Below are positions 1 to 2,764 of a DNA stretch of 64,000 bases, one piece after another. Each line of letters opens with the position of its first letter. Position 1 is the first letter of the stretch. A program made the translations under genes and the position numbers. The stretch is taken from positions 3,844,001 through 3,908,000 of the forward strand of contig NZ_JADEXS020000001.1 in NCBI RefSeq assembly GCF_015207005.2. Reading direction: 5' to 3'. The notes below the pieces were generated by a model. It did no database searches. It was not told where the DNA came from and was given only the letters and a program-made list of their open reading frames with translations. The DNA is from Desmonostoc muscorum LEGE 12446 (lineage in GTDB: Bacteria > Cyanobacteriota > Cyanobacteriia > Cyanobacteriales > Nostocaceae).

Positions 1-2058
1 GTTTATTATGGGCAAGGAAAAGCACCGGGGAATAATGAGTTGACAGCCCATGAGTTAACTCATGTGGTGCAGCAGACAGGCTCAGTACAGTCTCGAATTA
101 ACCGTTATTTGGCAACACCGAATTTTACCTTAAATACATCGGAAACTCCCCAAATCCAGCGTGACGGGGAAGGTAACAATCTCGAACGCTTGAACGAAAT
201 GCTGGATAAGTTTAACGTACCAGAAGAGGATGTCATTAAGTTGTGCGGGCAATTGACCGCTCCAGAAAAAGCCACCGTCCTCGCTGGAGGGTATCGCAGT
301 CGGATGATTGCTGCTCTGAATGTCAGTGAGATGGTGCAAGCCCTGAATAACTTGAATCCGCCTTTAAGTACCAAACTTGAATGGTTGGAAGCCACAACGA
401 CCTTCGGTAGTCGCCAACTGGATTATTCAACGATTCAACCCTGGATTACAGCAGCTCCCCAAGCTGAAAAGGATGCCCTAAAAATCAATTATTGGAAGAA
501 TTTCTTTGTCAATGTCTGTACTAATCAAACAATGGTCACAGCCCTGAATGATTTGGGCTTTGACTTAATCACCAAATTGACCTGGCTGCAAGCCGAAATG
601 ACCGTCACCAGTTTAGAACTGGATTATGCCACCATTAAACCCTGGATTACCGCAGCACCCCAGACTGAAAAGGATGCTCTGAAAACTGACACCTGGAAGA
701 ATTTCTTTGTCAATGTTTGTACCAATGAAACGATGGTCACAGCCTTGAATGATTTGGGCTTTGACTTGCAAACCAAATTGAACTGGCTGGAAGCCGAAAT
801 GACCATTACCAGTTGGGAATTGAGCTACACAACCATTCAACCCTGGATTACCGCAGCGCCCCAGGGTGAAAGGGATGCCTTGAAAACCGACGCCTGGAAG
901 AATTTCTTTGTCAAGGTTTGTACTAATCAAACAATGATTACAGCCGTGAATGATTTGGGCTTTGACTTAATTACCAAATTGACCTGGCTGGATGCCGAAA
1001 TGACTATCACGCGTTTAGAACTAGATTATGCCACCATTAAACCCTGGATTACCGCAGCACCCCAGGGTGAAAAGGATGCGCTAAAAACTGACACTTGGAA
1101 GAATTTCTTTGTTAAAGTCTGTACTAACGACACGATGGTTGATGCATTGATCGATCTGAATTTTGACCTCACCACAAAGCTGACATGGTTGTTGGCAGAA
1201 GGAGTTGGAGATGCTGCACTCGCAAATCTTATCGGCTCTGGAGATATTTTCACAGCCTTAGCTGGTTTGGATGAGGCTCAAATCACACAGCTGCGACGCA
1301 ACAGTGATTTAATAGATGTGCTGCAAAAGCTTATGACCAACGCTGAATTTGCACAATTGGCTGCTAATTTAGTGTTAATTACACCCTCGACAGTTGTAGA
1401 TCGAGTTAACGCCCGTAATGAAGCGCTGCGAATTCTGACCGTCCAGTTGAATAATAAAGAGATTGCCAGAAGTACCATTAATGGCAATATGCAAGTAGTG
1501 ATTATCCCCAGAAATAAGTTATTGACCGATGTCGCGCAATTTGCCGATTTGGCTGGAACAAGCACGTTTGATGGCAGACGGTGGGAAACGGTTCGAGGCG
1601 TCGGCCATGGCAATTATGTGGCCGTAACGGAAGAAAATCTGCTCGGTGGAAATTGTACAGCCACCTTTGGAGGTAATCCTGTTTCTGGAACTTATGCAAC
1701 AGGCTATTCTACGACTAGCCATGAATTTGCTCACGGTCTGCATGATAACTCTTTGACAGATGCCGATCGCCAAATCATTACCAATGCTTACAATGCCCGA
1801 AAAGCCCTGGCCACAGCAAGTCCCACCGATCCAAATCAATGGGTTGATGGTCGAGAAGGGTGCTATGCCTCCCAAACTGACCATGAATTCTTTGCACAAC
1901 TGAGTAACGCATACTTAGGAACCAATACTGGAAACGATCCAAACACCGGAGATCCACGCCACAATGGAAAAGCTTGGGTACAAACCCATGAACCAACTGT
2001 TTTCGCTCTTTTAGACAGAATGTACGCAGGAGGCAGTATACCCAATGCTAATCCATAG
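1..2058 (+). CDS. eCIS-core (DUF4157) protein with tandem repeats and C-terminal HExxH metallopeptidase-like domain (5' partial)
   Basis: The frame is open from base 1, so the start lies outside the window; at least 685 codons are present. The first residues read YYGQGKAPGNNELTAHELTH, the end of an eCIS-core (DUF4157) domain with its HELTH motif. Four 67-residue repeats follow (bases 331-1134, plus the start of a fifth), with recurring WITAAPQ and WKNFF blocks. The C-terminal third carries HEFAHGLH (HEFAH at 1720-1734) and, about 50 residues later, DHEFFAQLSNAYL, which could supply the third zinc ligand of a gluzincin-type peptidase. DUF4157 is known to mark cargo of extracellular contractile injection systems. 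Inference: an effector whose repeats link a loading domain to a protease-like toxic or processing domain. The injection genes themselves are not visible. The family call for the N-terminus is firm; the substrate is unknown. Confidence 0.72.
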   Translation, partial: VYYGQGKAPGNNELTAHELTHVVQQTGSVQSRINRYLATPNFTLNTSETPQIQRDGEGNNLERLNEMLDKFNVPEEDVIKLCGQLTAPEKATVLAGGYRSRMIAALNVSEMVQALNNLNPPLSTKLEWLEATTTFGSRQLDYSTIQPWITAAPQAEKDALKINYWKNFFVNVCTNQTMVTALNDLGFDLITKLTWLQAEMTVTSLELDYATIKPWITAAPQTEKDALKTDTWKNFFVNVCTNETMVTALNDLGFDLQTKLNWLEAEMTITSWELSYTTIQPWITAAPQGERDALKTDAWKNFFVKVCTNQTMITAVNDLGFDLITKLTWLDAEMTITRLELDYATIKPWITAAPQGEKDALKTDTWKNFFVKVCTNDTMVDALIDLNFDLTTKLTWLLAEGVGDAALANLIGSGDIFTALAGLDEAQITQLRRNSDLIDVLQKLMTNAEFAQLAANLVLITPSTVVDRVNARNEALRILTVQLNNKEIARSTINGNMQVVIIPRNKLLTDVAQFADLAGTSTFDGRRWETVRGVGHGNYVAVTEENLLGGNCTATFGGNPVSGTYATGYSTTSHEFAHGLHDNSLTDADRQIITNAYNARKALATASPTDPNQWVDGREGCYASQTDHEFFAQLSNAYLGTNTGNDPNTGDPRHNGKAWVQTHEPTVFALLDRMYAGGSIPNANP
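331..1134 (+). repeat. Four tandem 201-bp (67-codon) coding repeats
   Basis: Units begin at 331, 532, 733 and 934, each with ATG in the same frame, and a partial fifth starts at 1135. Spacing is exactly 201 bp. Units 2 to 4 are nearly identical in protein and close in DNA; unit 1 is more diverged. This looks like recent in-frame duplication within the effector-like gene. Confidence 0.9.
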
Positions 2059-2764
2059 CATTTGCCTCAGAAAAAGCCAAGTCATCCTGATGGCACTTTT
2101 GACAGTATTCTCCATCTTTTTCTGGGAATACAATAAACATCCACAAGGCGATCGATATAGTTATTTCAGTCAGACGAAAGGCAGCACCATGATGAATATC
2201 CAATCTGAAGCCGGAAGCATTCCCCAGCGAGAAATCCGTCACTTTGCTGTATACAAACAAACTCGATTAGCACTGTTAGTTGAAGATAAACCCGGAGTAT
2301 TAATTTCCAGTGCCAGTCCGGCTCCAGGCGGGCCACTCAAACATCCTTTCGTTAATGCCCAAGCAATGGACTCCCGGTATGAAAATGAAATGGGGAGTTT
2401 ATTGAGGCAATCTAACAGCTTTGATGAGTTTATTGGTTTGCTGATTAAACATGAATATGATATTCGCTCGTTTGATTATTTAGATTTGCCGAAAACGTTA
2501 ACCGCAGGATATCGAATTTTTGCCAAAGAAAAATTGTTAGCAGTTATCTGGAAACACCGAGGACAATTTTCAACCCTGACTCAACAACCCGAAAAAGATG
2601 ATCTGATTTTTGACCCTGCTACTTTAACTGTTTATGATGCAGCCTACACTAACTTTTTTTTAAAATATCTGGAAACAAGCTCTGATTTTGAGGAAATTTT
2701 ACAGAAAATGAAATCCGATCGCTTGTCTATTTTTGAAATTGCCGCTCATCTGCAAACAAATTGA
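2045..2764 (+). CDS. Hypothetical protein with N-terminal hydrophobic segment
   Basis: I do not recognise this 239-residue protein. Its first ATG lies 14 bases inside the end of the upstream effector-like gene, in another frame, which suggests translational coupling. Residues about 14-30 (VILMALLTVFSIFFW) form one hydrophobic segment, either a membrane anchor or an uncleaved signal. A later start near the MMNIQS stretch (about base 2189) would remove it. The rest is a soluble mixed alpha/beta sequence with no motif I can name; the C-terminal half (about residues 120-235) is helical and acidic. Because it directly follows a probable eCIS cargo gene it could be an immunity protein, chaperone or second cargo, but this is inference from position only. 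Confidence 0.6.
   Translation: MLIHSICLRKSQVILMALLTVFSIFFWEYNKHPQGDRYSYFSQTKGSTMMNIQSEAGSIPQREIRHFAVYKQTRLALLVEDKPGVLISSASPAPGGPLKHPFVNAQAMDSRYENEMGSLLRQSNSFDEFIGLLIKHEYDIRSFDYLDLPKTLTAGYRIFAKEKLLAVIWKHRGQFSTLTQQPEKDDLIFDPATLTVYDAAYTNFFLKYLETSSDFEEILQKMKSDRLSIFEIAAHLQTN

Follow-up and report, generated by a model that had tools for sequence, protein, structure and literature searches.

We analysed a stretch of 64,000 nucleotides from the filamentous cyanobacterium Desmonostoc muscorum LEGE 12446 (contig NZ_JADEXS020000001.1, positions 3,844,001 to 3,908,000), hereafter the window, which opens inside a gene that probably encodes a cargo of a contractile injection system. Base 1 of the window is base 3,844,001 of contig C1 of the 9.6 Mb genome (G000:C1), and window and genome are identical over the compared overlap. 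The start of the gene lies 675 or 687 bases before base 1 of the window (G000:C1:3843326 or 3843314; L009:13326 or 13314), and the full protein has 910 or 914 residues depending on the start chosen. Residue numbers follow the 914-residue form, except for the eCIS_core match, which is numbered on the 910-residue form. The features at the locus are:

1..2058, + strand: 3' three quarters of the cargo gene, an open reading frame (ORF) open at the 5' edge of the window
1..81, + strand: C-terminal end of eCIS_core (PF13699), its last 27 residues with HELTH included; whole match at G000:C1:3843863-3844081
49..63, + strand: HELTH motif of eCIS_core, residues 246-250
292..417, + strand: diverged partial first repeat copy, 17.7 bits
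418-618, 619-819, 820-1020 and 1021-1221, + strand: four 67-residue repeats, an all-alpha solenoid in the model
1270..2055, + strand: C-terminal zincin domain with the predicted fold of Pro-Pro endopeptidases (PPEPs) and anthrax lethal factor; the stretch that was modelled
1576..1584, + strand: R755-x-W757, kept in 47/49 and 43/49 alignment rows; proposed counterpart of PPEP-1 Lys101/Trp103
1720..1734, + strand: HEFAH, with H803 and H807 as presumed zinc ligands and E804 as presumed catalytic base
1864..1866, + strand: Y851, 49/49 rows, presumed counterpart of the PPEP-1 oxyanion tyrosine Y178
1885..1887, + strand: E858, 49/49 rows, presumed third zinc ligand, seven residues past Y851
2045..2764, + strand: conserved neighbour of 239 residues (224 from 2090), hydrophobic at its N-terminus; may be an immunity protein

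The preliminary description had placed an eCIS_core (DUF4157) sequence, four 67-residue repeats and a C-terminal HExxH motif in one protein, and the reading frame, the Pfam match and the repeat spacing agree with it. The eCIS_core match lies near the N-terminus (residues 180-252, E 3.5e-27, 94.8 bits), and the protein has HExxH sites at 246 (HELTH) and 803 (HEFAH), with EFFA at 858. Near-identical cargoes are found in Nostoc sp. FACHB-973 (97.8% over 914 residues) and in the metagenome-assembled genome Desmonostoc geniculatum HA4340-LM1 (97.1% over 916).

The part of the protein that connects it to other genes of the genome is its beginning. A leader of about 100 residues is common to 13 ORFs, the cargo and 12 others, whose payloads are unrelated. 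The leader model was made from 11 N-termini of the genome, and of the 13 matching ORFs 11 therefore match by construction and two are additional. The leaders (first 105 residues) were similar in all 78 pairs at E<=1e-3, and the payloads (after the core motif or residue 135) in one of the 78, over a stretch of 24 residues. In a codon comparison of nine of the leaders, 35 of 36 pairs had less non-synonymous than synonymous divergence; both were about 0.03 in the closest pair. Five of the 13 leader ORFs do not themselves match eCIS_core, and for one of them it is the adjacent ORF that does. Protein P0002 of Nostoc sp. ChiSLP02 has the leader, the repeats and the zincin domain, and eCIS_core is not listed for it.

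The leader was called (E<=1e-10, at most 20 candidates scored per genome, with a model that includes a block possibly common in eCIS_core proteins generally) in 65 of 211 genomes of the family. The sheath class found in this genome, defined as a best E reported as 0 and present in 77 genomes, occurs in 62 of the 65 leader carriers as compared to 15 of the 146 others. With the own genus (47 genomes) excluded, the figures are 23 of 25 and 14 of 139.

Several of the leader ORFs deserve mention in themselves. Those on G000:C1 include L012:9988, L010:5519, L011:12784 and L035:5165, and payloads among the ORFs scanned against Pfam include Ntox16 (L012:9988-12123) and OmpA (L010:8288-10327). The cargo at L035:5165-6670 has a sub-threshold match to a matrixin-like metalloprotease and no eCIS_core, and the one at L011:14299-15870 shows, by reading, about seven near-identical tandem acidic units with EEEEELQMKSLDTSTLQRESLP. 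At L013:7630-11894, on the - strand, the leader is in one ORF and eCIS_core in the adjoining one, and the two look like pieces of a single cargo gene; the same-species genome G479 has a leader in a longer open frame of 1358 residues. A second leader cargo (L009:11962-13092) lies directly upstream of the one described here; it matches eCIS_core in part, lacks HExxH and has no counterpart at this position in L017 and L018. Its C-terminal part has no Pfam match and contains what we take to be caspase/CHAT-like motifs.

The genome does carry injection-system genes. The three results that would have spoken against the preliminary description (no eCIS_core match, no such genes, a C-terminal model lacking HExxH and a distal glutamate) were thus all not obtained. 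Genes for tube, hub, CIS_tube, baseplate J and Tail_P2_I were found at about 5.47-5.48 Mb of G000:C1, and a sheath, two tube-like proteins and a Pvc16-like protein (Pvc16_N) at about 6.99 Mb, that is 1.6 and 3.1 Mb from the cargo gene. The structural genes are thus split over two loci 1.5 Mb apart. Only one sheath was found, and it matches 8bky over its whole length with 414 bits, as compared to 183 bits for Anabaena All3325, over the C-terminal third only. The baseplate J protein matches 9gtp, an entry with the same sheath sequence as 8bky. Of the solved structures, it is the Streptomyces system that comes nearest to the two proteins (8BKY is mentioned in the available text of the Streptomyces injection-system paper, PMC10066040). 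On these sheath scores and the baseplate J match, the likely carrier is of Streptomyces type and not thylakoid-anchored. Delivery by a thylakoid-anchored system, to which the preliminary description had pointed, was rejected on the sheath comparison: the sole sheath found resembles that of a cytoplasmic Streptomyces system, and no sheath of the Anabaena type was found in the genome. Among the matches listed for the 211 family genomes, the sheaths fall in three bands, at least about 1030, about 670-910 and below 270 bits, which suggests that the family has several sheath classes and some of its genomes more than one.

From the combined evidence of leader, eCIS_core, sheath and predicted fold, we consider the protein to be, with good probability, a cargo of the genome's own Streptomyces-type contractile injection system, carrying a zinc endopeptidase of the PPEP/lethal-factor fold. 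Where such a cargo would act is a separate matter. It is conceivable, though we lean away from it, that it is released inside the own filament under stress and that the protease aids regulated cell death. The closeness of sheath and baseplate J to the Streptomyces system speaks for this, as that system is reported to cause a stress-induced cell death that needs contraction (PMC10066040, available text), and a membrane-anchored partner would make sense if self-damage has to be restrained. However, the target does not follow from the type of sheath, and the Streptomyces-named relatives of the domain, one of them with a papain-fold toxin domain, resemble polymorphic toxins.

The zincin domain was compared in an alignment of 49 rows, the window protein and 48 relatives. 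HExxH, Y851 and E858 are kept in 49/49 rows, and it is therefore unlikely that the C-terminal HExxH is there by chance. In a separate alignment of 11 rows HExxH is invariant, and the tyrosine and the glutamate are missing only in P0057, which is gapped there. The predicted fold is that of a zincin, with HExxH and the invariant distal glutamate, and the nearest solved folds are PPEPs, whose rows of the structural alignment have 15-18% identity. Invariance, model and fold together suggest that H803, H807 and E858 would be the zinc ligands, E804 the base and Y851 the oxyanion residue. The family scans of the cargo gave no Pfam or NCBIfam family over cut-off for the C-terminus. For Pfam ATLF (PF07737) the window protein has no match, and two of 46 scanned members match at E<=1, both below the curated cut-off. 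Searches of PDB sequences with the domain gave no PPEP chain among the matches listed.

The domain is rare. It was found in two of 386 genomes drawn across the phylum, the own genome included, and in five of 217 family genomes, three of them full-length, from the genome itself, another of its species and another of its genus, and two weak and partial. A pattern scan of genome contigs gave six loci, FACHB-973, HA4340-LM1 and four distant ones in other phyla at 24-33%, and a scan of viral contigs with six short patterns confirmed no relative. eCIS_core is not listed for 41 of the 48 relatives. An LQRxxGN-like motif near the N-terminus is seen in 15 of the 48 (among P0005 and P0010-P0031), of which only P0005 has eCIS_core; this motif may be another delivery mark.

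The window domain is like PPEP-1, -2 and -3 in its fold, its HExxH helix and a tyrosine followed by a glutamate at +7, and its R-x-W is a possible counterpart of Lys101/Trp103 of PPEP-1 (PMC12828418). In PPEPs an S-loop Trp or Tyr and a Lys close over the substrate, a role for which W757 and R755 would be candidates. The position before the zinc glutamate is variable in the window family, whereas it is a glutamate in PPEP-1, and the available text describes PPEPs as secreted enzymes, whereas the window domain is the end of a cargo (PMC12828418). With Tox-ALFMetallopeptidase, the lethal-factor-like peptidase toxins of polymorphic toxin systems, it shares fold class, HExxH and delivery together with the PVC-metallopeptidase, which is eCIS_core; the 2012 table row for this toxin has no cyanobacteria, and Imm-SuFu is the immunity protein listed (PMC3482391, available text). 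The nearest described cargo that we found is Cgo1 of AlgoCIS from Algoriphagus machipongonensis, which likewise combines DUF4157/eCIS_core with a C-terminal metalloprotease motif, two HExxH in one protein (PMC8894135). Cgo1 is described there as having a disordered N-terminus, similar to that of Cgo2, while their C-termini differ (PMC8894135). Compared by description, it differs from the window cargo, which has a four-copy helical repeat block, a Streptomyces-like delivery and a conserved neighbour. Alr3311 and Alr3312, putative DUF4157 cargoes of the thylakoid-anchored system of the filamentous cyanobacterium Anabaena (PMC8894136), are also like the window cargo by description, in DUF4157 and in host, and the sheath of that system is All3325, which matches the sheath of this genome over the C-terminal third alone. 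The preliminary description had taken the effector type to be possibly undescribed. As Cgo1 and lethal-factor-like peptidases with this delivery are already published, it can be said only not to be wholly so; within the part of the literature covered, we recognised no publication that joins a PPEP with contractile injection, DUF4157 or polymorphic toxins.

We think it unlikely that the C-terminal zincin acts on the cargo itself, as a releasing peptidase by which parts are freed or matured, and not as a toxin. Zhang et al. (2012) do give this role to most versions of one HExxH class in toxins of the Photorhabdus virulence cassette (PVC), and regard some C-terminal versions as likely toxins (PMC3482391, available text). 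But the zincin stands at the very C-terminus, where the payloads of the leader ORFs vary, an HExxH is already supplied by eCIS_core, and for most of the relatives eCIS_core is not listed.

The four repeats are spaced exactly 67 residues apart, with identity at 47-55 of 67 positions between pairs, and the fifth, partial copy lies upstream of them. In a model of window 1-2055 (mean predicted local distance difference test score, pLDDT, 86.4; residues 1-57 below 50) they form a solenoid made entirely of helices, about five to a repeat. The repeat profile matches 14 of the 65 homologous proteins compared. P0023-P0027 and P0030 are among the 14, and since eCIS_core is not listed for these six, repeat and protease travel together beyond the injection system. 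Among the matches listed by Foldseek for this long model, the PPEP rows are followed mostly by helical repeat and designed proteins with low TM-scores, with no convincing solved relative of the repeat block. An NCBIfam match of the repeats to Lnu(AN2), 30.6 bits against a cut-off of 340, was taken as chance.

The neighbouring ORF starts within the last 14 bases of the cargo gene, or at 2090. It was found in three of 217 genomes, which are those with the near-identical cargo, at the same distance, and a protein search gave five clusters, one of them 81% identical and with a locus tag adjoining that of P0002. Its hydrophobic start has a mean hydropathy of 2.01 over 17 residues. It matches no Pfam family over cut-off, whereas the immunity protein listed for Tox-ALFMetallopeptidase is Imm-SuFu. 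From its position and its membrane segment, our guess is that it may be the immunity protein. Substrates of PPEPs can be encoded beside the enzyme, and S-S-A-x-P-x-P-x-G is present in six of six aligned rows, with adjacent prolines in P0069 and P0070. Even so, we regard it as quite unlikely that the neighbour is a substrate or pseudo-substrate, because the window's version has no Pro-Pro bond, the six sequences include two that are identical or nearly so, and most of the protein is conserved, as would be expected of a folded binding partner.

Several observations weigh against the interpretation as a Streptomyces-type cargo with a PPEP-like protease. Among the ORFs of the approximately 13 kb upstream, which were read and not family-scanned, no structural gene was seen. 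Relatedness in the link between leader and sheath was controlled only by dropping the own genus; fifteen genomes have the sheath class and no leader match, and the leader carriers G125, G423 and G442 have other sheaths only. The link to the neighbour comes from few, related genomes. As for the protease, the model was built without zinc, the cargo's own domain has no match to PPEP or ATLF at the sequence level, and its best weak matches are other zincins (Peptidase_Mx1, E 0.06; 9urd, E 0.014). P0029 reaches 22.4 bits for ATLF against a cut-off of 27.4 and has a weak Peptidase_M90 match as well. In lethal factor itself the higher score falls on the N-terminal part, which we take to be non-catalytic, and not on the catalytic part. 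There is also published evidence of this sort: growth inhibition by Cgo1 is independent of its metalloprotease motifs (PMC8894135), and CD1597, a PPEP-like protein with HEXXH, has displayed no Pro-Pro activity (PMC12828418). That the protein is no injection cargo at all, and is exported by another route or encoded by a decayed gene, is very improbable: the gene is far from the structural genes and there are relatives with PG_binding_1 or Streptomyces names for which eCIS_core is not listed, but leader and eCIS_core are present, the leader co-occurs with the sheath class, and the gene is intact, with 97-98% conservation between it and its counterparts in L017 and L018.

If the protein is a cargo of the Streptomyces-type system, the leader would mark it for loading, and the all-helical rod of four repeats that follows eCIS_core would fit the narrow tube. 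Firing might then release the peptidase into a target or into the producer, where it could cut a protein, possibly at proline-rich sites, and the neighbour with its hydrophobic segment might protect the producer. A bolder version, which we offer tentatively, is that in this cyanobacterial family the leader, and not eCIS_core, is the address tag that ties swappable effectors to one class of Streptomyces-type machines, and that the protease is a new PPEP/lethal-factor subfamily which cuts a proline-rich protein and is checked by the adjacent membrane-anchored partner.

A filamentous cyanobacterium is shown here to have a sheath of the Streptomyces type and none of the Anabaena type. With the payload comes a zinc protease family of strong conservation, for which the predicted fold is precise and the residues of interest are few. 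Of these results, the leader and its tie to one class of sheath most deserve to be pursued. The choice of cargo in contractile injection systems is an open question (cf. Danov et al.), and a conserved leader, natural cargoes without eCIS_core and the link to a single sheath class make it directly testable.
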